From: Flavipsychrobacter sp.
GTDB taxonomy: Bacteria; Bacteroidota; Bacteroidia; Chitinophagales; Chitinophagaceae
NCBI GenBank assembly: GCA_025963465.1
Contig: JAOQAP010000192.1
Span: forward strand, 1-46,045
Reading direction: 5' to 3'
Length of the DNA stretch: 46,045 nucleotides
The notes under the pieces were generated by a model, which was not told where the DNA came from, searched no databases, and was given only the letters and a program-made list of their open reading frames with translations. Every line of letters begins with the position of its first letter. Positions within the stretch are counted from its first letter, which is position 1. The position numbers were made by a program, and so were the translations under genes. Below, piece by piece: positions 27,190 through 46,045 of this stretch.

Positions 27190-27281
27190 GGAATCGTTAA
27201 AACAATGTTGATACTCACTCGCTGGCACAGATTTTGATTTGGTTAAAATGTATAACAACCAAAGAAATTAAAATCAACGAC

Positions 27282-27536
27282 ATGAGTAACGCACAGGAAG
27301 TTTTCGAATTTATAAAGAATAAGTGCATCAATAATGACATGGACGAGCGCAGCGATTGCTACCGCGAGTTGTCTAATATGCTGACCGCTACCATAGGGGA
27401 GCGATCTGTACTTGCCTATGTGCGCAAGCTGGCTTATGCAGGCCTTATAAAATTTGATGAGTTCAGCCGCCGCATTGTGCTTACGCGCAAGGGCAGGGTA
27501 ACGCAGTCTGTAAATGACATGGCACTGGGTATCTAA
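27282..27536 (+). CDS. Small winged-helix-like protein, unknown function
   Basis: An 84-aa protein from ATG 27282; the longer reading to 27234 lacks a normal start codon. Residues 36-74 (NMLTATIGERSVLAYVRKLA, then YAGLIKFDEFSRRIVLTRKG) have the helix-helix-wing character of a small winged-helix domain, so it may bind DNA. Its stop overlaps the stop of the convergent phospholipase gene by 3 bp. No family is recognised. Confidence 0.55.
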   Translation: MSNAQEVFEFIKNKCINNDMDERSDCYRELSNMLTATIGERSVLAYVRKLAYAGLIKFDEFSRRIVLTRKGRVTQSVNDMALGI

Positions 27537-34041: not shown

Positions 34042-37000
34042 ATGAAGGTATTTCTATATTTATTCCTGTTATTACAGTTATTCACATGGCCGGGCAGGTC
34101 TGAGGCGCAAACCATATCTACGATAGCCGGAAATGGCTATTATAGTTATAGCGGCGATGGTGGCCCGGCTTCTGCAGCCCAGTTCTTCATTCCTAACGGT
34201 CTTGCCCTGGATGGCAGCGGCAACATGTATGTGGCCGATAAATTCAACCATTGTATCCGTAAGATCACCCCGGCAGGTATTGTTTCCACTATTGCCGGCA
34301 ATGGTGAGGGAGACTATACAGGTGATGGAGTGCCCGCGACAGCCACCAGTTTGTACACACCTCCCAGCGTTACCGTAGATGGGGCAGGCAATGTGTATAT
34401 ACCTGACTTCGGCAATAATCGGGTACGTAAAGTGACCCCGGCAGGTATCATCAGCACGGTGGCCGGTAATGGTTTTGCAGGTTATTTTGGTGATAATGGC
34501 CCTGCTACTGATGCTAAATTATATGGCCCTGCATCAGTTGTTTTTGATCCTGCGGGGAATATGTATGTATCCTGCCAGCTGACGCATGTGATACGTAAGA
34601 TAAATACGTCAGGGGTTATTACCAGGTTTGCCGGCACCAGTGCTCCGGGTTATTCGGGTAATGGTGGTCCTGCAACCGCAGCAATGTTCGCTTTTCCTTC
34701 CGGTCTTGCAATAGATGCTGCGGGTAATATTTATATATGCGATTATACCAATTGCTGTGTGCGCAAAGTGAACCCTGCAGGCATCATTTCTACGATAGCA
34801 GGGAAGGCTACAGCGGGCTACAGCGGTGACGGCGGGCAAGCAACCAATGCTGAACTGGACAGGCCGAACGCGTTAAATATTGATGCAGCGGGTAATATTT
34901 ACGTTGCAGATGTGGGCAATAATTGTGTGCGCAAAATAAATACTTCGGGCATCATCAGTACAATTGCAGGTAATGGAACAGCAGGGTTTTCCGGCGACGG
35001 CGGGCCGGCCACTGCGGCTACAATAATGGGGTGTGAGACAGTAGTGCGTGATCCTTCAGGAAACATTTATATAGGTGACAGTGGCAGTTTCCGGATCAGG
35101 AAAGTAAATACTTCGGGTATCATCAGCACATATGGCGGCGGCACGGGCGACGGCCACCAGGCCACAGCAAACTCTATGAACGTGTTCCATTCCATAGTTG
35201 ACGCCAGTGGCAATATTTATGTTTCTGATGGTGACAACAACCGTATCTGCAAAATAAACAGCTCCGGCATTGTGACAACAATAGCTGGCAACCAGTCGCC
35301 CGGCTATTCGGGTGATGGCGGGCCGGCAACTGCGGCCCAACTGGATTACCCCGTAGGTGTAGCCATAGACGCCAGTAATAATATTTATGTTATAGACCAG
35401 GATAACAGTGTGATCAGGAAGATATCGGCGGCAGGTATCATAACAACTATAGCCGGAGATGGAACGCTGGCGTATGGTGGAGATAATGGTCCCGCCACGA
35501 ATGCCTCTATGCACTTCCCTATGAGCATGGCAATAGATAACGCAGGGAATGTTTTTTTTGCAGACAAAACAAACAACCGTGTAAGAAAAATAAGTACCAG
35601 TGGTATTATGACCACTATTGCAGGTACGGGAGCTTATAATTATACCGGTGATGGTGGTCCTGCCACAGATGCTACGCTGGAAAATCCGATAGGTGTGGCA
35701 TTTGATATTGCAGGGAACCTGTACGTATCCAATGCGGGCAATGGTACTATCCGTAAGATAGACAATGCGGGGATCATCAGCACCGTGGCAGGGACGGGAA
35801 TTATAGGTAATACAGGCGATGGTGGTCCGGCTACAGCTGCAAGGCTGAGCCTGAATGGTATTTCCGTAGACAGCAGCGGCAATATTTTTACGGTAGACGG
35901 GCACAGGCTATGCCGTAAGATAAATGCGCTGGGAATAATAACCACAATTGCAGGTACAGGTACATCAGGATTCAGTGGTGATGGCGGCCCTGCAACTGCG
36001 GCCCAGCTGCACAACACTACCAGCGTGACGACGGATGGCGCAGGCAATGTTTACATTTCCGATTATGATAATTACCGGCTGCGGAAAATAACAACAAATC
36101 AATTGCCTAAAATAACCGGAACGTTAAAGGTATGCCTGGGGGGAACCAGTACCCTAAGCGATGCCACGCCCGGAGGAACATGGACCAGCCTAGGTACTAC
36201 TGTAGCTACTGTCGGGTCATCAAGTGGTGTAGTTACGGGAGTGAATGTTGGCACCGCTACTATAGTTTATGACGTGGCGGGCAATACCACTGCTACTACA
36301 GTAACAGTGGTGCCATTACCTACAGTAGCCGCTATAACAGGATCCGTTTCTTCAGTATGTGCAGGCGGAGGTACTATAACAGTTACCGATGCCACACCAG
36401 GTGGTACCTGGAGCAGCAGTAATGCTAATGCCTCAGTATCAGGCGGCACTGTTACCGGCATATCGGGCGGTACAAGTACTATAAGCTATGTGATCACTGC
36501 CGCATGCGGTACTGCAACAGCTACAAAAACCATAACAATTAACCCGCTTCCCCCTGCGAGTACGATCACAGGGCCATCTGCAGTATGTATGGCAGGAGGT
36601 ATCATAACCCTTACTGATGCAATAGCCGGTGGCACCTGGAGCAGCAGCAATACAAATGCTTCAGTATCAGGTGGTACTGTTACGGGTATAGTGGCAGGTA
36701 CAAGTACCATCAGCTATGTGCTCACCAACTCATGTGGGTCCACGCCTGCGGTAAAAACGATCACAATTAATCCGCTTCCTGACGCAGGAACAATTACGGG
36801 CCCATCAGCTGTGTGTGAGCTATCGTCTGTAACGCTGAGTGATGCCATAGGTGGCGGCATATGGAGTAGCAGCAGTACTACCATATCTGTCTCAGGAAAC
36901 GTTGTTACAGGCGTATCGGCAGGCACAGGTGTTGTAAGTTATGCGGTAACTACCTCATGCGGCACTGCATATACCACTAAAACAATTACGGTAAATCCTT

Positions 37001-38607
37001 TACCGTCAGGGGGCGTTATTACAGGTCCTTCATTTGTTTGCATAGGCAGTGCAGTAAACTTAACCGATGCCGTGGCCGGTGGTGTGTGGAGCAATAGTAG
37101 TACTACTATTGCTGTGGCCGGACCTGTAGTATTTGGTTTAAATGTTGGTACAGGTGTAATAAGCTATACGGTGACCAATGGCTGCGGTACAGCACTTGCT
37201 ACCTATACAATAGTAGTCAATCCGATGCCATCGGCAGGAAGTATTACCGGGCCGTCAAACTTGTGTGAAGGGACTACCATAACATTGACCGATGCTGTGA
37301 CAGGAGGAGTATGGAGCAGCAGTAATACAAACGCATCTGTATTGGGTGGGGTAGTGAATGGTATAATAGCCGGCACCAGTAATATCAGTTATACAGTAAC
37401 CACAGTTTGCGGCACCGTATCAGCTATAGTCACAATAACGATAGATCAGTTGCCGTTTGCAGGTACTATCACAGGTGCATCCTCTGTGTGTGAAGGGGCG
37501 TTCATTGTTTTAACTGATGCGGCGACGGGTGGCATATGGAGCAGCAGTAATACAAATGTTGTTGTAACAGATAGTATGGTGACGGGAGCTGTTGCAGGAA
37601 CAAGTATGGTCATGTATAGTGTTACCAACGGATGTGGTACAGATGTAGCTTCTAAAGTTATTACAGTCAATCCGCTTCCTGTGGTAATAACAGGAACGGC
37701 GCATGTTTGTGTGGGTGGTATCACTTCCTTAAATGATAATACACCAGGCGGTAGCTGGAGTAGTGATAATTCATTCCAGGTGGCAGTAGGTTCCGCTTCC
37801 GGTATTGTATCCGGTTTGGCCGTGGGAACGGCTAATATTTCCTATACACTTGGTACCGGCTGTTCAGTAAGTGTTGTAGTGACAATAGACCCGATCCCTG
37901 CGGCAATTGGTGGCGCTGCAAGTGTCTGTGTAAATGCGATAGCCCAGCTTAATGATCTGAATGCAGGAGGTACATGGCGTTCAGCAAATATATCATTAGC
38001 AGGTATTGACAGTATGAGCGGGGTGGTAAGGGGAGTAGCTGAAGGGGTTGTTTCTATTACTTACACGCTGCCTACAGGGTGTAGTACCAATGGGCTGGTA
38101 CGGATAGATCCATTGCCTTACGTATTGCCAATTACAGGTGCAACGGTAGTATGTGTCGATTCAGGTATATCACTGTCTGATGGCGTGAATGGAGGCATAT
38201 GGTCTGTGAAAAATCCATTAGCAACTGTTTCGGCAACAGGACAAGTGAAAGGGTTAGCCCCCGGAAATGACACAGTGATGTATGCTGTAACAAATGTTTG
38301 CGGGACAGCTACGGAATCATGGGCCTTAAGTATAAGCTCATGCAATTCAGCCGGCATACCTACTATACTGCACGTTTACCCTAACCCTAATGACGGGGAC
38401 TTTACGCTTATGCTCTCCTCGGGTTCCGGCCAGGAGGCTGCGATGTATATAACAAATGTGCTGGGGCAGAAAGTACTGATACAGCCTATTATTACCAACC
38501 AGGCATACTCCATAAGCCTGTTGGTGAACCAGGCCTCTGGTATATATCTCGTTACTGCTTTGCTGGGTAATAATAAGTATGAAACGAAAGTGGTCGTGAT
38601 CCATTAG
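34042..38607 (+). CDS. Giant secreted NHL/Ig-like repeat protein with T9SS tail
   Basis: A 1521-aa protein. A signal peptide (MKVFLYLFLLLQLFTWPGRSEAQ) precedes twelve NHL repeats of about 56 aa (to residue 690 or so; pattern TIAGNG..GYSGDGGPATAAxL..P.GVA.D.AGNIYVAD..NN.VRKI...GIIS). Ten Ig-like modules of about 75 aa follow (pattern ITGPSxVCxxxxITLTDAxxGGxWSSSNT..SVxxGxVTGxxAGTxxISYxVTxxCGT...). A type A sorting domain ends it (VYPNPNDGDF ... ASGIYLVTAL). It is exported by Sec and type IX to the surface or medium, and probably acts as a multi-domain adhesin or binding scaffold. No catalytic domain is seen. The repeats are near-identical at DNA level in places and may recombine. Confidence 0.87.
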   Translation: MKVFLYLFLLLQLFTWPGRSEAQTISTIAGNGYYSYSGDGGPASAAQFFIPNGLALDGSGNMYVADKFNHCIRKITPAGIVSTIAGNGEGDYTGDGVPATATSLYTPPSVTVDGAGNVYIPDFGNNRVRKVTPAGIISTVAGNGFAGYFGDNGPATDAKLYGPASVVFDPAGNMYVSCQLTHVIRKINTSGVITRFAGTSAPGYSGNGGPATAAMFAFPSGLAIDAAGNIYICDYTNCCVRKVNPAGIISTIAGKATAGYSGDGGQATNAELDRPNALNIDAAGNIYVADVGNNCVRKINTSGIISTIAGNGTAGFSGDGGPATAATIMGCETVVRDPSGNIYIGDSGSFRIRKVNTSGIISTYGGGTGDGHQATANSMNVFHSIVDASGNIYVSDGDNNRICKINSSGIVTTIAGNQSPGYSGDGGPATAAQLDYPVGVAIDASNNIYVIDQDNSVIRKISAAGIITTIAGDGTLAYGGDNGPATNASMHFPMSMAIDNAGNVFFADKTNNRVRKISTSGIMTTIAGTGAYNYTGDGGPATDATLENPIGVAFDIAGNLYVSNAGNGTIRKIDNAGIISTVAGTGIIGNTGDGGPATAARLSLNGISVDSSGNIFTVDGHRLCRKINALGIITTIAGTGTSGFSGDGGPATAAQLHNTTSVTTDGAGNVYISDYDNYRLRKITTNQLPKITGTLKVCLGGTSTLSDATPGGTWTSLGTTVATVGSSSGVVTGVNVGTATIVYDVAGNTTATTVTVVPLPTVAAITGSVSSVCAGGGTITVTDATPGGTWSSSNANASVSGGTVTGISGGTSTISYVITAACGTATATKTITINPLPPASTITGPSAVCMAGGIITLTDAIAGGTWSSSNTNASVSGGTVTGIVAGTSTISYVLTNSCGSTPAVKTITINPLPDAGTITGPSAVCELSSVTLSDAIGGGIWSSSSTTISVSGNVVTGVSAGTGVVSYAVTTSCGTAYTTKTITVNPLPSGGVITGPSFVCIGSAVNLTDAVAGGVWSNSSTTIAVAGPVVFGLNVGTGVISYTVTNGCGTALATYTIVVNPMPSAGSITGPSNLCEGTTITLTDAVTGGVWSSSNTNASVLGGVVNGIIAGTSNISYTVTTVCGTVSAIVTITIDQLPFAGTITGASSVCEGAFIVLTDAATGGIWSSSNTNVVVTDSMVTGAVAGTSMVMYSVTNGCGTDVASKVITVNPLPVVITGTAHVCVGGITSLNDNTPGGSWSSDNSFQVAVGSASGIVSGLAVGTANISYTLGTGCSVSVVVTIDPIPAAIGGAASVCVNAIAQLNDLNAGGTWRSANISLAGIDSMSGVVRGVAEGVVSITYTLPTGCSTNGLVRIDPLPYVLPITGATVVCVDSGISLSDGVNGGIWSVKNPLATVSATGQVKGLAPGNDTVMYAVTNVCGTATESWALSISSCNSAGIPTILHVYPNPNDGDFTLMLSSGSGQEAAMYITNVLGQKVLIQPIITNQAYSISLLVNQASGIYLVTALLGNNKYETKVVVIH

Positions 38608-38997: not shown

Positions 38998-40194
38998 TTA
39001 TAAAAACAGCTTAACAATAGAGTATACTATAGCCGCCAGCAAACCGCTGACCGGTATAGTCAACACCCATGCCCACAGCAGGCTGATAGTAACACCCCAG
39101 CGCACTGCAGAAAGACGCTTTGTAGCACCAACACCGATGATAGAACCTGTGATAGTATGGGTAGTACTTACAGGTATCTTCAGGTTCTCAGTAAGGAACA
39201 AAGTAATAGCACCTGCGGTCTCTGCAGCCACACCTTCAAAAGGGGTAACCTTAGTGATACGCGTACCCATCGTTTTAATGATTTTCCATCCGCCGCTCAT
39301 AGTACCTAATGCTATTGCCGAATAGCATGCAAGAGGAACCCACACTGGCATCTGGGAGAAGTTGGTGATCTGGTGGTCTGCAATAAGGGCTACAGTGATG
39401 ATACCCATTACTTTCTGCGCATCGTTACCGCCATGGCCTATACTGAACGCTGCTGATGATACCAACTGGAAACGTTTAAGATACAGTGTAGAGCGTGCGG
39501 CGTTCAGAGAGCCAAGGAACATAGTGAACACGCTCATGGATGTGATAACAAGGCCCATGAGCAACCACTTGAAATTCTTGCTTTCCAGTATTACGTTGAG
39601 TACATAGCTGTCGTGCAGGTTTTTCAGTTTTGCAGGGTCTGTTTCCATGAAATTCCACAACAGGCCCACAACCACTGATATAATGATAAGCGATATGATC
39701 TTAGGTAACGCTCCTTTGCGGAATGAATAGATGAACCAAAGGGAGATAATAAATGCCATGATCATACCTAAAAGCGGTGCAAGTACAATGAAGCTAACTG
39801 TTTTGATGATAGGCTCAGAATTGACCGCGTGAAAACCTGCATGTGCAATTGCTGCACCGGCAAAGCCGCCTATAAGTGTATGCGATGAGCTGGATGGTAT
39901 GCCAAACCACCAGGTAACAAGGTTCCAGGAGATGGCCGCAATAAGGCCGGACATAATTACCGGCAAGGTAATGAACTGCTCCTGTACTGTCTTGGCAATG
40001 GTATTGGCGACGCCGTGGTCCTTGAATATAAAAAAGGCCACAAAGTTGAAGAAGGCTGCCCACACTACCGCCTGGAAAGGCGTAAGGACCTTGGTAGATA
40101 CAATGGTGGCTATTGAATTCGCCGCATCATGAAAGCCATTGATATAGTCAAATACTATAGCCAGGAAAAGGATCACTAAAAGAAGAACCGACAT
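38998..40194 (-). CDS. Low-affinity inorganic phosphate transporter, PiT family
   Basis: A 398-aa membrane protein with about ten helices and the two inverted PiT signatures: GFHDAANSIATIVSTKVLTP near the N-terminus and GGNDAQKVMGIITVAL in the second half. IPSSSSHTLIGGFAGAA and VSTTHTITGSIIGVGA are the matching symmetric motifs. It imports metal-phosphate with protons or sodium. It is encoded 8 bp after its DUF47 partner gene, as in many bacteria. Confidence 0.95.
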   Translation of the reverse strand: MSVLLLVILFLAIVFDYINGFHDAANSIATIVSTKVLTPFQAVVWAAFFNFVAFFIFKDHGVANTIAKTVQEQFITLPVIMSGLIAAISWNLVTWWFGIPSSSSHTLIGGFAGAAIAHAGFHAVNSEPIIKTVSFIVLAPLLGMIMAFIISLWFIYSFRKGALPKIISLIIISVVVGLLWNFMETDPAKLKNLHDSYVLNVILESKNFKWLLMGLVITSMSVFTMFLGSLNAARSTLYLKRFQLVSSAAFSIGHGGNDAQKVMGIITVALIADHQITNFSQMPVWVPLACYSAIALGTMSGGWKIIKTMGTRITKVTPFEGVAAETAGAITLFLTENLKIPVSTTHTITGSIIGVGATKRLSAVRWGVTISLLWAWVLTIPVSGLLAAIVYSIVKLFL

Positions 40195-40202
40195 ACGGGC
40201 AA

Positions 40203-40850
40203 TTATGAGTATTTGATGATAATTGTTTCAACAACATTGGCAGCGTCTTCACACTTATCAGTTACTGTTTCCAGCATCTGGTAAATGTCTTTTTGCTTGA
40301 TAAGCTCCATCGCGCTGATGTTTGATGAGAATAATTTCATCATGGTACTGTCCAGCAGGTCATCGGCGTCATTTTCAAGGCTATTGACCAGGACGCACGC
40401 TTCGGTAATAGCGCGCAGGTCTTTCATGTCACGCAGGGCGTGTATGCTTGTATTAATAGCAACTATCGATTTGGAAATGATCTCAGCAAATGCCGGTAAT
40501 GTATTGTACTGGTCGGTGATCTGGTAGTTTACAATCCGTTTTGCAGCCCCCCAAGTATAATCAGCGATATCATCGAGAGATGTGGCCAGGTAGTGGATGT
40601 CTTCCCGGTCGAAAGGAGTAATGAAATTGCGCCCTAACTCTACGAATAGTCTGTGAGTTGTGTCATCGTTCTTGTGTTCCCAGTTTTCCAGGCTCCTGAG
40701 CATTTCGTCTCTTTTACTAAGATCCTGCTCTTGCAGTGCCCCTTTGAACACATCGCCCATTTGCACAAGCGTATCAGATACTTCCTCAAACAGACTATAA
40801 AATACCTTGTCTTTAGGCAAAAAGAACTTTAATACCGAATCGAAACCCAT
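40203..40850 (-). CDS. DUF47/PhoU-like PiT accessory protein
   Basis: A 215-aa all-alpha cytoplasmic protein (FLPKDKVFYSLFEEVSDTLVQM, EHKNDDTTHRLFVELGRNFITPFDREDIHYLATSLDDIADY). The THRLF...FITPFDREDI motif is the hallmark of the PhoU-like DUF47 family that regulates PiT transporters. It is the first gene of the two-gene unit with the transporter. Confidence 0.92.
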   Translation of the reverse strand: MGFDSVLKFFLPKDKVFYSLFEEVSDTLVQMGDVFKGALQEQDLSKRDEMLRSLENWEHKNDDTTHRLFVELGRNFITPFDREDIHYLATSLDDIADYTWGAAKRIVNYQITDQYNTLPAFAEIISKSIVAINTSIHALRDMKDLRAITEACVLVNSLENDADDLLDSTMMKLFSSNISAMELIKQKDIYQMLETVTDKCEDAANVVETIIIKYS

Positions 40851-40988
40851 AACAATTAATTAATGTAAAGTTAACACGGCAAAACTATCGTCAATTATCG
40901 GTCTTAAAAAATGATAACGTAGACTTAATAATTTCTTAACATTGAGATTAATGACAATTTTTCAATGAATTATGAATTGATTTTTAGT

Positions 40989-42362
40989 TTAATAATATTG
41001 ACTTTTGTAGTGTTTAGCAGGGATCGTAATTAAAAATACCGTGCCTCCTGTTTGATCGGGATCTACATTAATATTCATGCCATGTAGGCGGAATATTTTT
41101 TCGGACAGGGAAAGCCCTATACCAAAACCAATATAACCCTGTGTATTTGCTCCCCGGTAAAAAGGTTGGAATATTTTTTGCATATCTTCTTTTGCAATTC
41201 CAATGCCATGATCTTTTACGGTAATAACAGCAGCATTTTCTGTGCAATGAATACTGCATATAACGGGTTTATTTCCGGAGAATTTTATTGCATTCTTTAC
41301 AATGTTGCCCATGGCTATATACAGTAGGTACCTGTTACCTTGTATTGTATAATCCCTGTGATCGTCCGGTAGGTTGTAGACAAGCTCTATATTGCTTCCC
41401 GGTACTTTATTGGTCCATTCATCTTTTACCTGCCATAGCAGCTCATCCAATCTTATTTCCTCAAAGTCATTTACATCTATATTAGCCTGGGCCATTTCGA
41501 ACAGGTTGTTGATCAGTTCATTTAGCCGTCCTGTTTCTGCGAGTACCCGTTGCAGGGTTTTCTTATATTCTTCCTTCTCCCTGTCAAATACGAGGGTTAC
41601 CTCTATATCGCCAATGATAGACGTAATTGGCGTTCTTAATTCATGAGAGGCATTGGCGACGAAAGATCTTTGCGCTTCAAATGATTGTTCGAGGTGCTCC
41701 AGCAGGTTGTTGAAGGTAATGACCAGTTCATTTATTTCGTCTTTGCTCGCCTTGGCCTGCAGCCGCTTATCAAGGCTTGTAGCCCGAATGATCTTCACAT
41801 CATTAATGACCTTTGAGATCGGCGAGAGGGCTATGCGGGCAAACAACTGCCCCAGGAAGAACATGATGATAACAGAGATAAAGAACGTAAGCGTCATAGC
41901 CCAGAACAACTGGTGCATATGCTGATGACCATAATGATCGACAGCGGAAATGAGTACAGTGAAATTGCCGGAATTGTCGATATAGTAAATACCAGATACC
42001 TGTGTATTGCCTTCTGTATAATTAAGTGTCCCTTGCGCCTTTACTTTATCTATTATTTTACGGTCCCATTGCGCGGTGCCTTCTTTGATAAATACAGATT
42101 CGTAACTATTGTTGTATACGCGCACTACTTCCTCAGGAAGGGAAAGCGGGTATTTTTTCTGTACTTCGCTGAATTTTTCTTTGGACAGGTTATCTTCAGC
42201 CAGGAACAACTCTGCAACAGTAAGCGCCCTGTTGTTCATTCGGGAGAAGAAATCTGTTTTCCTGTTCTTTTCGGTGGTAATATATATGCTGACCAGTACC
42301 ACCAGCAGCAGTATGGCAAAGCTTAAAGTAAACTGCAATGACAGGCGGTCCCTTATTTTCAT
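40989..42362 (-). CDS. Sensor histidine kinase
   Basis: A 457-aa membrane kinase. TM1 (9-29) and TM2 (153-175) enclose a periplasmic sensor of about 120 aa. HAMP follows (176-228), then HisKA with phospho-acceptor His240 in ASHELRTP, and the ATPase domain with N box NIVKNA (353-358), DHGIGIA (384-390) and GFGIGLS (412-418). It phosphorylates the OmpR-type regulator encoded 11 bp upstream. The signal is unknown. The nearby PiT/DUF47 genes might be targets, but no link is seen in the sequence. The HAMP/HisKA layout resembles CusS/ArlS-type kinases. Confidence 0.95.
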   Translation of the reverse strand: MKIRDRLSLQFTLSFAILLLVVLVSIYITTEKNRKTDFFSRMNNRALTVAELFLAEDNLSKEKFSEVQKKYPLSLPEEVVRVYNNSYESVFIKEGTAQWDRKIIDKVKAQGTLNYTEGNTQVSGIYYIDNSGNFTVLISAVDHYGHQHMHQLFWAMTLTFFISVIIMFFLGQLFARIALSPISKVINDVKIIRATSLDKRLQAKASKDEINELVITFNNLLEHLEQSFEAQRSFVANASHELRTPITSIIGDIEVTLVFDREKEEYKKTLQRVLAETGRLNELINNLFEMAQANIDVNDFEEIRLDELLWQVKDEWTNKVPGSNIELVYNLPDDHRDYTIQGNRYLLYIAMGNIVKNAIKFSGNKPVICSIHCTENAAVITVKDHGIGIAKEDMQKIFQPFYRGANTQGYIGFGIGLSLSEKIFRLHGMNINVDPDQTGGTVFLITIPAKHYKSQYY

Positions 42363-42373
42363 GATCTATGCTA

Positions 42374-43048
42374 TCATACTTCTTTAAGTGTGTATCCCAT
42401 GCCTATCACCGTATGTATAAGGGTTGGGGTATGCCCCTTATCTATTTTACTGCGCAGGTAATTGATGTACACATCAATTACATTGGTACCACGGTCGAAA
42501 TCAATGCCCCAGACTGCCTGTGATATATAAGCCCTTGCCAGTACCTTGTTTTTGTTAGTAATGAGCAGCTCCAGCAAAGCAAATTCTTTTTGCGTCAGCA
42601 CTATCTCTTTACCTGCACGGGTGACCGTCTTTTTATAGCTATCCACTTCCAGATCTGCTACTTTGTATTGGGCTGGTGGCACAGCCTGCATCCTTCTTCG
42701 TGTTACTGCTTTTATTCTTGCCAGTAACTCTTCGAAATGAAATGGCTTTACCATATAATCATCTACCCCTGAATCAAAACCAAGCAATTTGTCCTGTGTG
42801 GTGCCAAGGGCGGTAAGCATTAATACCGGCAAGTCTGATCTTGAGCTCCTGATGCGCCTGCACAGTTCCACGCCTGTAATCCCCGGTAGTATGACATCGA
42901 GAATGGCAAGGTCGTATTCTTTGCCGGTTGCAAGTTTTTCCCCTGAAAGGCCATCGTGAGCTACTTCCACAACGTACCCCTGCTCTTCCAGTCCCTTCCG
43001 GATAAAGTCAGCTACTGTAGGTTCATCTTCAACTAATAGAATATTCAT
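42374..43048 (-). CDS. OmpR/PhoB-family response regulator
   Basis: A 224-aa regulator. The receiver domain has EDE (7-9), phospho-acceptor Asp51 in AILDVILPG, Thr79 and Lys101 (MVKPF). The C-terminal winged helix (residues about 125-224) has the typical VDSYKKTVTRAGKEIVLTQKEFALLELL, RAYISQAVWG, NVIDVYINYLRSKID blocks. It is the first gene of the pair with the histidine kinase. DNA targets cannot be read here. Confidence 0.96.
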   Translation of the reverse strand: MNILLVEDEPTVADFIRKGLEEQGYVVEVAHDGLSGEKLATGKEYDLAILDVILPGITGVELCRRIRSSRSDLPVLMLTALGTTQDKLLGFDSGVDDYMVKPFHFEELLARIKAVTRRRMQAVPPAQYKVADLEVDSYKKTVTRAGKEIVLTQKEFALLELLITNKNKVLARAYISQAVWGIDFDRGTNVIDVYINYLRSKIDKGHTPTLIHTVIGMGYTLKEV

Positions 43049-43129: not shown

Positions 43130-43603
43130 TTAGTGCAGCTTGGTGCCATCTCTATGAGATTGTTCTTTGAATATTGTATTTTTCTTAGCCTCATCTATAG
43201 AATGCGAAGCGCCGAGGTCCTGTTCTTCTTCTGAAAGGTTGCTCAGTTTAGCATAGAATTTTTTCAATACTTTCAGTTCGTCTTCAGTCAGATCCTCAAT
43301 GTTCAGTACACGGTTGCTGGCTCCTTTTGTAGCTGCGATCAGCTCGTTCAGCTTTAGCTGCAATGCCATGGTATCTTTATTGGCAGCTTCCTGTATCACA
43401 AATACCATAAGAAAAGTGATGATGGTAGTGCCTGTATTGATCACCAACTGCCAGGTATCTGAAAAATGAAAAATAGGGCCTGTAATACCCCATATGATGA
43501 CGATGGACAATGCGCAGATAAATGCTGTGGAACTGCCTGTAGCTTTTGATACCCTGGAGGAGAACTTGTCAAACGTTGCTGATAATTTGTTTTCACTTTT
43601 CAT
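43130..43603 (-). CDS. Low-affinity iron permease family protein
   Basis: A 157-aa protein from ATG 43603, which overlaps the DUF2252 stop by 11 bp (the upstream reading to 43633 starts inside that gene). Two TM helices (about 22-40 and 50-70) and the conserved WQLVINTGTTIITFLMVFVIQEAANKD block define the low-affinity Fe(2+) permease family, followed by a soluble tail (about 75-157). Bacterial members have no proven iron activity, so the name is by family only. It is translationally linked to the DUF2252 gene. Confidence 0.85.
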   Translation of the reverse strand: MKSENKLSATFDKFSSRVSKATGSSTAFICALSIVIIWGITGPIFHFSDTWQLVINTGTTIITFLMVFVIQEAANKDTMALQLKLNELIAATKGASNRVLNIEDLTEDELKVLKKFYAKLSNLSEEEQDLGASHSIDEAKKNTIFKEQSHRDGTKLH

Positions 43604-44822
43604 TGTCACTGATTTTATTGTTAAGAAAGTCACCTTTTTTATGATCGTTCAGATACTCTTTATAGTCTGCTTTTACCTTTGCAGCATATTGCTCTGCATA
43701 TTCCAGTATAGTATTCTGCCATTGGTCATCCTGGCCAAAAGCAATGAGCTCGTCTGCAATTGAAGCGCCCTGCCTGCCAGTGCTGCGCAACTGTGCCGAT
43801 GCTGTGAGCATGGCCATATCGTTTATTACCTGGTACATATCCCTGTAACGCTCTTTCAGGAGCTTAAAGTTGATACTGTCTTTTGTAGGCTGCATTTCCT
43901 GTATGAGGTAAGCTTCGTCCTTAAATATGCTGTGACTGAGCAGTGCAGGAGGGATGTTTTGCATACGTTGCTGTACGGCTACCACACGCTCTGCTTCAGA
44001 GCTCCATTGAGGTTGCGGAATAGTTACATATGGTGCAAGAGAAGAAGGCCTTGCCTGTTTCATATCCACCAGCAGGTATCTTCCTTGGGCATTTACACTC
44101 TTCAGCAGGAATGCGTAGCGTTTTAGGCCTACGCTGCCGGTGCCGGCCAGCCGGAAAACGGCATCAACAACCTCGTAATTGTATGGGCTATCCGTATTGT
44201 AAATGACCCAATCAGTAATGTGGTGGATCAATTCCCGTTTCAGGAATTTGTCTATCTCAAAATGATTGGGATGGTCTATGTGAATGACCAGTGTGTCCTT
44301 GTCTTTTACAGTGCGTTTGCGCAACAGTTCTTTCTTCTTGCGCTTGCTGGCACCATCCAGGAAAGTGCGCACAATGCCATTAGCTGTTTTGCGCTCTATA
44401 TAGTACGGCTTTCCTTTGCTGAGCGTAGCCGAGTAGCTTTTTAAGAATAGCTGTGCCATACGCAGTGCCTTCTCCCTTTCTATCTTCAGCGAGGTGAATG
44501 CAATAAATATGCTGGTGACAATTCTTGTAAGTTCCCACGCTGCGGGAGCCAGTATACTTTCGTCAAAATCATTCAGGTCGAAGTACACAAGGCGGTTATC
44601 TCCTTTATAGCTGCCAAAGTTCTCCAGGTGCAGGTCGCCGCACACCCAGGTAAGTGGTGATGCCGGTATCGTATTTGCCTTGCTCAGATCCTCATAAAAC
44701 AAGTGACATGTCCCCCGGTAGAAGCGGAACATATTTTCGGTCATCAGCTTATACTTTATCTGTACCATTTCCGGCAACAGATCTTTATTGAAATCTTTAA
44801 TTCGCTGTGAAACTGCGTTCAT
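43593..44822 (-). CDS. DUF2252 family protein (kinase-like fold)
   Basis: A 409-aa cytoplasmic protein. FRFYRGTCHLFYEDL (33-47), WVCGDLHLENFGSYKGD (59-75) and YFDLNDFDESILAPAAWELTRI (about 80-101) are the DUF2252 hallmarks; HLEN and the NDFDE motif resemble the catalytic loops of aminoglycoside-phosphotransferase-like kinases. The substrate is unknown. It heads a unit with the iron-permease-family gene and has a TGGCATGAT motif upstream, shared with the divergent ferritin-like gene. Confidence 0.88.
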   Translation of the reverse strand: MNAVSQRIKDFNKDLLPEMVQIKYKLMTENMFRFYRGTCHLFYEDLSKANTIPASPLTWVCGDLHLENFGSYKGDNRLVYFDLNDFDESILAPAAWELTRIVTSIFIAFTSLKIEREKALRMAQLFLKSYSATLSKGKPYYIERKTANGIVRTFLDGASKRKKKELLRKRTVKDKDTLVIHIDHPNHFEIDKFLKRELIHHITDWVIYNTDSPYNYEVVDAVFRLAGTGSVGLKRYAFLLKSVNAQGRYLLVDMKQARPSSLAPYVTIPQPQWSSEAERVVAVQQRMQNIPPALLSHSIFKDEAYLIQEMQPTKDSINFKLLKERYRDMYQVINDMAMLTASAQLRSTGRQGASIADELIAFGQDDQWQNTILEYAEQYAAKVKADYKEYLNDHKKGDFLNNKISDNEK

Positions 44823-44875
44823 ATATGTTTATAGCATTGGTGGGTGTGAATTAATGCCGTGTATTGAACTATTTT

Positions 44876-44887
44876 AAAATCATGCCA
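44876..44887 (-). promoter_or_regulatory. Shared TGGCATGAT motif, copy on the DUF2252 side
   Basis: TGGCATGATTTT on the minus strand, 54 bp upstream of the DUF2252 ATG. Same core as the plus-strand copies at 44917 and 45560. Confidence 0.45.
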
Positions 44888-44916
44888 GTAATGACTAACT
44901 AAATATACTCAATAAT

Positions 44917-44931
44917 ATTGGCATGATGTTT
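44917..44931 (+). promoter_or_regulatory. Shared TGGCATGAT motif, copy before the DUF892 gene
   Basis: ATTGGCATGATGTTT, 30 bp upstream of the DUF892 ATG; identical over 15 bases to 45560-45574. Likely a promoter element or binding site. Confidence 0.55.
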
Positions 44932-44961
44932 TTAAAAACTTGGTTTCAAAACTGAAACCAT

Positions 44962-45543
44962 ATGAAAAAGACAGCGACAAAAAACGCAACAGCAGGCAAA
45001 AAAAGTACGGCTGTAAAAGCGGCTAAGCCGGCAAAGCAAAAAGATTCTATGCTGGAAGAGTTCTTTTGCGATGAGCTCAAAGACATTTACTGGGCTGAGA
45101 AACATCTGGTAAAAACATTGCCTAAAATGAAGAAGGCTGCTACATCACCGCAATTGCAGCAGGCATTTGCCGATCACCTGGAAGCAACTAAGGTACACGT
45201 GATGAGGCTCGAGCAGGTTTTTGAGCTGATGGGCAAAAAAGCGCAGGCCAAAAAATGTGATGCTATGGCAGGCATAACTGAGGAAGGTGAAGGTATAATA
45301 GAAGAAACAGAAGCTGGAACAGCTACAAGGGATGTAGGTCTGATACTGGCTGCGCAAAAGGTGGAACATTATGAGATATCTACTTATGGCGGGCTGGCAC
45401 AGGTAGCACGTACAATAGGTCGTGATGATGTGGCTGAGCTATTAGCTGCAACTCTTGCTGAAGAAAAGGAAGCTGATGAATTGCTTACAGATGTTGCAGA
45501 AAACAACATCAATTATGAAGCAAGCGAAGAAGAGGAAGAGTAA
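44962..45543 (+). CDS. Ferritin-like DUF892 (YciE/YciF) protein
   Basis: A 193-aa protein. A Lys/Ala-rich basic N-terminal arm (1-28) precedes the four-helix DUF892 bundle: LEEFFCDELKDIYWAEKHLVKTLPKM, AFADHLEATKVHVMRLEQVFELMG, AGTATRDVGLILAAQKVEHYEISTYGGLAQVA and LAATLAEEKEADELLTDVAEN. The Glu and His residues in these helices sit where ferritin-like proteins bind a di-metal centre. The acidic C-terminus (EASEEEEE) is unusual next to the basic arm, which could bind DNA. Family members are stress induced. Confidence 0.9.
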   Translation: MKKTATKNATAGKKSTAVKAAKPAKQKDSMLEEFFCDELKDIYWAEKHLVKTLPKMKKAATSPQLQQAFADHLEATKVHVMRLEQVFELMGKKAQAKKCDAMAGITEEGEGIIEETEAGTATRDVGLILAAQKVEHYEISTYGGLAQVARTIGRDDVAELLAATLAEEKEADELLTDVAENNINYEASEEEEE

Positions 45544-45559
45544 CAAAAAGAGCAAGGCA

Positions 45560-45574
45560 ATTGGCATGATGTTT
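45560..45574 (+). promoter_or_regulatory. Shared TGGCATGAT motif, copy before the YflT-like gene
   Basis: Fifteen bases identical to 44917-44931, 36 bp upstream of the ATG at 45611, so this gene probably has its own promoter in addition to read-through from the DUF892 gene. Confidence 0.55.
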
Positions 45575-45610
45575 ATTAACTAAGGCAAACCAAATCAAAA
45601 ATCTAACAAC

Positions 45611-46045
45611 ATGGAAAACAACAAAGAGTACCTCGTAACAGGAATGTTTAATGACAAAGAAAGTGCAGACCGCGCATACAGTATGCTGCAGGCTCGTGGG
45701 TACAGCAACAATGACATTCACCTGATCATGTCTGACGACACCAGGAAGAAACATTTTGCCGGTGAAGCAGTAAAGACAGAACTGGGTACTAAAGCAATGG
45801 AAGGTGCGGGAACAGGATCTGCTATAGGCGGCACACTGGGCGCGATAGCAGGCGCAGTAGCTGCTATAGGCACTACACTGCTGATACCTGGCCTAGGTAT
45901 TGTGGTAGCAGGCCCGTTAGCGGCGGCAGCAGCGGGCGCGGGTGCAGGCGGGCTTACCGGCGGTATCATTGGTGCACTTGTAGGCTCAGGTATTCCTGAA
46001 GCTCGCGCAACAGTGTATGAAAAAGGAGTAAAGGAAGGTAGGATC
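45611..46045 (+). CDS. YflT-like stress protein with Gly/Ala-rich helix, cut by the window end
   Basis: A frame open from ATG 45611 to the last base (145 codons; the stop lies outside). Residues 6-45 (YLVTGMFNDKESADRAYSMLQARGYSNNDIHLIMSDDTRKKHF) resemble the heat-induced YflT-type fold. Residues 60-125 form a Gly/Ala-rich stretch (AGTGSAIGGTLGAIAGAVAA) of the glycine-zipper type found in stress proteins that may insert in membranes. It lies 67 bp after the DUF892 gene. The family call is by pattern. Confidence 0.65.
   Translation, partial: MENNKEYLVTGMFNDKESADRAYSMLQARGYSNNDIHLIMSDDTRKKHFAGEAVKTELGTKAMEGAGTGSAIGGTLGAIAGAVAAIGTTLLIPGLGIVVAGPLAAAAAGAGAGGLTGGIIGALVGSGIPEARATVYEKGVKEGRI

Follow-up and report, generated by a model that had tools for sequence, protein, structure and literature searches.

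Classical sigma-54 (RpoN) promoters follow the consensus TGGCACG-N4-TTGCW, in which TTGC is the -12 box, and place the transcription start about 26 nt beyond the T that opens the motif. General stress and stationary-phase responses are elsewhere the job of sigma-B in Bacillus or sigma-S in E. coli, whose regulons include YflT-, YtxH-, and YciF/DUF892-type proteins and small membrane proteins, while little is known of stress-gene control in many Bacteroidota. In this phylum, sigma-54 is already known to control genes for protein quality and the envelope. In Flavobacterium psychrophilum, SM4 is a sigma-54 motif, with promoter mutagenesis at one operon, and the portion of that study drawn on here places GroESL, Lon, DnaK, GrpE/DnaJ, ClpB, HtpG, and Skp in its regulon, together with AsmA, a thioredoxin-family protein, an OmpA-like lipoprotein, and exported proteins (PMC9723704). 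The same portion gives this species a median leader of 24 nt, seven ECF factors, and one sigma-54 (PMC9723704). Chaperone and protease genes of Bacteroidota are enriched for sigma-54 sites in the part of a comparative sigma-54 study used here (PMC12316311).

In the window analyzed here, the whole stretch of 46,045 bases from Flavipsychrobacter sp., which is an entire contig (C28) and one of the 277 contigs of a 4.18-Mb genome, we found three exact copies of TGGCATGAT, all within 700 bases and each upstream of one of three genes (DUF2252, DUF892, YflT-like), as the sequence-only reading had proposed. These copies are probably the -24 elements of sigma-54-type promoters with a relaxed -12 box that serve envelope and stress genes. 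The genes and candidate promoters, along with a fourth promoter-like site, are the following.

43593..44822, minus strand: DUF2252 gene (Pfam PF10009, E 2e-82)
44872..44887, minus strand: candidate sigma-54-type promoter of the divergent DUF2252 gene, with exact TGGCATGAT at 44879-44887, TTA at positions 11-13, and the ATG 65 nt downstream
44919..44934, plus strand: candidate sigma-54-type promoter of the DUF892 gene, with -24 TGGCAT, exact TGGCATGAT at 44919-44927, TTT at positions 11-13, and the ATG 43 nt downstream
44962..45543, plus strand: DUF892 gene (Pfam PF05974, E 3.7e-55)
45562..45577, plus strand: candidate sigma-54-type promoter of the YflT-like gene, with exact TGGCATGAT at 45562-45570, TTT at positions 11-13, and the ATG 49 nt downstream
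45611..46045, plus strand: YflT-like gene, truncated by the contig end (Pfam PF11181, E 3e-5, 24.9 bits, just missing the curated cut-off of 26.2)
27223..27238, plus strand: fourth promoter-like site, TGGCACAGATTTTGAT, 59 nt ahead of an 84-aa ORF starting at 27282

The predicted transcription starts would lie at about 44945 for DUF892, 45588 for the YflT-like gene, and 44861 for DUF2252, giving leaders of 17, 23, and 39 nt, respectively. A perfect inverted repeat, GGTTTCA-AAAC-TGAAACC, at 44942-44959 lies between the motif and the DUF892 ATG and spans the predicted start; it is absent elsewhere in the loci examined, save for overlapping copies of the same stretch. Elsewhere in the window, a 1521-aa ORF at 34042-38607 contains repeats of the NHL-like and Ig-like types, its tail by eye resembles a secretion signal, and protein starts like its own are also present in the genome sample. 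A phosphate-type cluster at 38998-43048 encodes a PHO4 transporter, a PhoU_div (DUF47) protein, a histidine kinase, and a response regulator.

Shuffled windows contained on average 0.74 exact copies of TGGCATGAT, and three were reached in 5 of 100 shuffles, so that the window count by itself is just mildly unusual; with up to one mismatch allowed, the window has no excess of TGGCATGAT (16 seen versus 19 expected). The longer identity reported upstream of the DUF892 and YflT-like genes is exact, since the 15-mer ATTGGCATGATGTTT stands at both 44917 and 45560, and none of 100 shuffles held two copies. The core claimed on the minus strand before the DUF2252 gene is also present, but at 44879-44887 rather than at 44876.

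The genome-wide search for which the sequence-only reading had called favored the motif, with sites enriched upstream of genes, and the motif also proved to keep to a narrow range of distances and to be retained in relatives. With up to one mismatch, TTGGCATGATKTTT occurs at 23 sites in the host genome versus 2 for a reversed-pattern control, and the looser TGGCAYRNNNTTT at 74 versus 42. Of these 74 sites, 26 lie outside predicted ORFs and 25-110 nt ahead of a same-strand start codon, a placement that holds for 2.48% of sampled positions (244 kb) and would be expected by chance for about 1.8 of the 74. Under a laxer sorting, 30 sites are upstream, 27 are inside ORFs of at least 120 aa, and 17 are elsewhere, several of the last having no gene start within the locus. 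A comparison of 16 sense with 6 antisense sites is not a clean control, because divergent promoters share the same DNA. When dyads were counted de novo in 505 upstream regions of the own-genome sample, GCAT-N5-TTG was found 21 times versus 5.3 expected and ranked 14th; the top dyads were mainly primary-sigma-like boxes, and the motif was not among them. One locus of contig C49 (L005:1501-1730) has two TGGCMTGAT sites 206 bases apart, each ahead of a very short ORF (45 and 74 aa).

The distance to the gene was taken from 40 site-gene pairs outside long ORFs, each defined by the first ATG 18-130 nt past the motif that opens an ORF of at least 45 aa (or at least 15 aa if the ORF leaves the locus). 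This distance is at least 38 nt in 39 pairs, the lone exception being a DnaJ-domain gene at 31 nt, although gene models are simple ORF calls and the starts and distances of single genes may be off. Such a lower limit is what a transcription start about 26 nt past the motif would lead one to expect. Combined with sigma-54 geometry, the observed distances yield leaders of about 12 nt and longer and are compatible with a start 23-28 nt past the -24 element.

A second element accompanies the motif at the -12 distance. Among 32 TGGCAYR sites located 34-75 nt upstream of genes in Chitinophagaceae-like loci, T occupies position 11 in 81%, position 12 in 94%, and position 13 in 59%, compared to 17%, 27%, and 22% for TGGCAYR sites in coding sequence (n = 107). 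This T-rich stretch was not selected for, as only TGGCAYR was fixed and the following bases were free. The full pattern was counted with four of 80 loci (L058, L063, L076, L093) omitted: it occurs 28 times in the Chitinophagaceae-like DUF892 loci (45 loci, 275,894 bases), 20 of them upstream, versus 2 for the control, and 3 times, never upstream, versus 4 controls in Sphingobacteriaceae/Cytophagales loci (31 loci, 197,472 bases). The T-rich element is displaced by no more than one base from the TT of a sigma-54 -12 box.

The resemblance to the -24 half of a sigma-54 promoter suggested by the sequence-only reading is supported by this T-rich element, as it is by two intact rpoN genes and SM4-like targets, while the canonical GC of the -12 box is mostly lost. 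TGGCA(C/T) is exact at all three window sites, but positions 14-15 read TT, AT, and AA, so the earlier observation of a missing GC stands and these sites are not classed as canonical sigma-54 promoters. Across 30 upstream sites of the own genome, G is found at position 14 in 7 and C at position 15 in 10. A few genes, namely Lon (TGGCATAAGTATTGA), GroES (TGGCATAAAAAGTGA), and thioredoxin (TGGCATTGATTTTGT), have G at position 14, and both Lon and RimP stand behind a G-containing form of the motif.

To follow the motif in relatives, 80 loci were sorted by hand from record titles into 45 Chitinophagaceae-like and 35 others, several being Bacteroidetes or Chitinophagales MAGs without a finer name, and 78 DUF892 upstream regions were usable. 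The closest DUF892 relatives among the matches listed are two Flavipsychrobacter MAGs (76 and 83% identity). With a pattern chosen post hoc, after inspection of the same upstream sequences, the motif is found upstream of DUF892 in 27 of the 45 Chitinophagaceae-like loci, compared to a mean of 1.39 and at most 6 in shuffles, and in 3 of 33 other loci (shuffle mean 0.52, maximum 3). Within the stored flanks of the 45 loci, DUF2252 is a neighbor in two and YflT in none; since neighbors are rarely shared, the motif travels with the DUF892 gene and not with its neighborhood.

The same pattern, left unchanged, was applied to orthologues of the other two genes, for which tblastn rows with E >1e-4 were excluded, as were L256 and L258 for want of a start. 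It matched 6 of 14 YflT rows (shuffle mean 0.23, maximum 2), or 4 of 12 without the window itself. Among the six YflT orthologues with at least 57% identity, the motif is retained in L247 (81% identity), L248, and L250, and two more close orthologues (L249, L251) have near-matches. For DUF2252, 6 of 31 rows matched (shuffle mean 0.6, maximum 4), a count that falls to 4 of 29 once the window is left out. Of the three sites, that of DUF2252 is thus the weakest and least conserved, and chance is harder to exclude for this copy alone.

On a broader scale, TGGCAYRNNNTTTNNA has 1692 sites versus 1068 controls in 119 genomes of the order, with an excess in 90 and a deficit in 24, counts that give no clean probability because the genomes are related. 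This excess is modest overall and differs widely by family, from 337 versus 256 controls in the window's own family to no excess in family f52 (74 versus 79). The exact 14-mer was also tried as a test across the phylum; found in 70 of 296 genomes, it was uninformative.

The products encoded 3' of the motif sites include DUF892, YflT-like, and DUF2252 proteins, a YtxH-like protein (below the curated cut-off), a tail-specific protease, a DnaJ-domain protein, OEP, DUF2383, Transgly_assoc, MlaE, a K+ transporter, Lon, YceI, a pyridine nucleotide oxidoreductase, Ku, a redoxin, DUF5670, AsmA, OmpA, GroES, and thioredoxin. We liken the OmpA-domain target to the OmpA lipoprotein of the F. psychrophilum SM4 regulon. 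The 40 scanned target proteins were picked by hand from the site lists; for some, the upstream site overlaps an ORF on one strand, and 13 of the 40 have no Pfam family at E 0.01. The idea that the motif marks one regulon is not supported in that form: the motif marks a promoter class of about 30 or more genes at scattered places, chaperones and secreted proteins among them, and the DUF2252 site is the least conserved of the three.

The host genome encodes two intact rpoN genes, each with activator-interaction, core-binding, and DNA-binding domains. Both proteins, when aligned to solved sigma-54 chains, keep ARRTVAKYRE, which we take to be the RpoN box, and STxSR. Candidate enhancer-binding proteins are represented by six strong PF00158 matches, with five weak ones set aside, and by six PF25601 matches, which are not exactly the same six and include one contig-edge fragment. 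The second rpoN belongs to a module of its own.

L181:2394-10432 (contig C171): DUF2383 gene, divergent kinase-like ORF, second rpoN, NtrC-type regulator, PAS histidine kinase, and a further receiver-type ORF

The NtrC-type response regulator 3' of the second rpoN has receiver, sigma-54-interaction, and Fis-type HTH domains and is followed by the PAS histidine kinase. The DUF2383 gene, beyond the divergent kinase-like ORF upstream of this rpoN, has the motif 41 nt before an ATG, or 14 nt if an earlier ATG is its start. In three other genomes (G033, G253, G375), the lower-scoring rpoN is likewise followed on its own strand, at a distance of about 1 kb, by an enhancer-binding-protein domain. A search of 20 upstream regions for an activator site gave no shared palindrome; the 8-mer TATACTCA was found in four of them, two being the same DNA. 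TATACTCAATA, common to the window upstream of 44919 and to the DNA preceding the YceI site in L020, where it stands 15 and 35 bases ahead of the motif, respectively, is a possible activator site seen in very few cases.

The number of rpoN genes does not explain where the motif occurs. As a test, rpoN presence or absence is uninformative, since the gene is nearly universal (294 of 296 Bacteroidota genomes). The second rpoN was considered as the reader of the motif but is not proposed as such, as the six genomes of the family that have two rpoN genes show no greater excess (111 versus 82 controls) than the 13 that have one (226 versus 174). Among the DUF892 genomes, at least two rpoN matches, some of them fragments, occur in 16 of 27 with the motif and in 10 of 18 without it. 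The motif thus does not track the second rpoN, and the housekeeping RpoN may well be its reader. DUF2252 matches occur in five of six two-rpoN family members versus none of four traceable one-rpoN members, a hint only, and the DUF2252 promoters of four other two-rpoN genomes (L271, L275, L279, L281) lack the motif under the same test.

Most sites lack the -12 GC, which would also suit a different sigma factor, either an ECF factor or a primary-sigma variant with TGGCA as the upstream half of its promoter, and ECF factors do exist in Bacteroidota, with seven reported in the F. psychrophilum material (PMC9723704). However, the two elements have the spacing of -24/-12 and not that of -35/-10 or -33/-7, and a -35-type element 38 nt before the ATG would leave almost no leader. 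Moreover, the -7 box TAnnTTTG of the Bacteroidota primary-sigma promoter (TTG/TAnnTTTG) is absent between motif and gene at the three window sites, and only 4 of the 40 pairs have it ahead of the ATG within the stretch that follows the motif, versus 64 of 363 other genes in their last 40 nt, a difference that is not significant (Fisher p 0.27). With the GroES and Lon sites also combining sigma-54 spacing with a G at the -12 box, we consider recognition by another sigma factor unlikely.

The fixed 9-base core could instead be bound by a transcription factor, whether an activator or a repressor, with no sigma factor involved, and a single dimeric regulator could occupy the two divergent copies at 44879 and 44919. 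Such a site is quite improbable for a motif that is directional rather than palindromic, that keeps its lower limit to the start codon in nearly every pair, and that has a T-rich element at a fixed distance from it. Chance recurrence in A+T-rich intergenic DNA, or copies left by local duplication, would agree with the few shuffles in which three exact 9-mers were reached, but is extremely improbable in view of the genome-wide excess, the distance to genes, and the conservation among relatives with different neighborhoods.

We favor sigma-54-type promoters with a relaxed -12 box because of the enrichment, the distance to genes, the conservation at DUF892 and YflT, the T-rich element at the -12 distance, the intact rpoN and the activators, and the SM4-like targets; against this reading stand the mostly lost GC, the lack of an activator site in the search described above, the poor conservation at DUF2252, the lack of a link to rpoN number, the modest excess in the order, and the absence of the motif from the top de novo dyads. 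At such promoters, RNA polymerase with RpoN would bind TGGCAY at -24 and the T-rich -12 box 10-12 bases on, and the complex would stay closed until an NtrC-type enhancer-binding protein, activated by a signal, hydrolyzes ATP and opens it. Transcription would then start about 26 nt past the first T, producing the three leaders given above. About 30 or more genes would share this promoter class, many with roles in the envelope, protein quality, and stress, and these may be induced under stress.

It is possible, if rather doubtful, that Chitinophagaceae run a general stress and stationary-phase response through sigma-54, in which relaxed -24/-12 promoters, activated by kinases and the NtrC-type regulator beside a specialized second RpoN, would switch on DUF892, YflT, DUF2383, YtxH, Ku, and similar genes. 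In a limited literature search, we found no link of DUF892/YtxH/CsbD-type genes of Bacteroidota to sigma-54, and no description of DUF892/YflT-type targets in Chitinophagaceae, of a relaxed -12 box, or of a second RpoN beside an activator. A searchable promoter class with defined geometry provides lists of candidate targets and candidate regulators, making it testable whether sigma-54 takes the role of sigma-B or sigma-S here and whether a -12 box functions without its GC.

Compared to the sigma-B and sigma-S regulons, the kinds of target are similar, whereas the sigma class and the promoter differ, and the stress role here is putative. Like classical sigma-54 promoters, those described here have TGGCAY at -24 and a T-rich stretch at the -12 distance, in a genome with intact RpoN and enhancer-binding proteins, but the -12 GC is not conserved and no upstream activator site was found. 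Set against the available portion of the SM4 description, the targets here also include DUF892, YflT-like, DUF2252, YtxH-like, DUF2383, DUF5670, and Transgly_assoc proteins, and, unlike in F. psychrophilum as presented there, the -12 GC is mostly lost and a second rpoN adjoins an NtrC-type activator. Judged by the kinds of downstream genes and the promoter type, SM4 as covered in that portion is alike, sharing the phylum, the -24/-12 promoter type, and the same kinds of target, from GroES, Lon, and thioredoxin to AsmA, an OmpA-like lipoprotein, and exported proteins.
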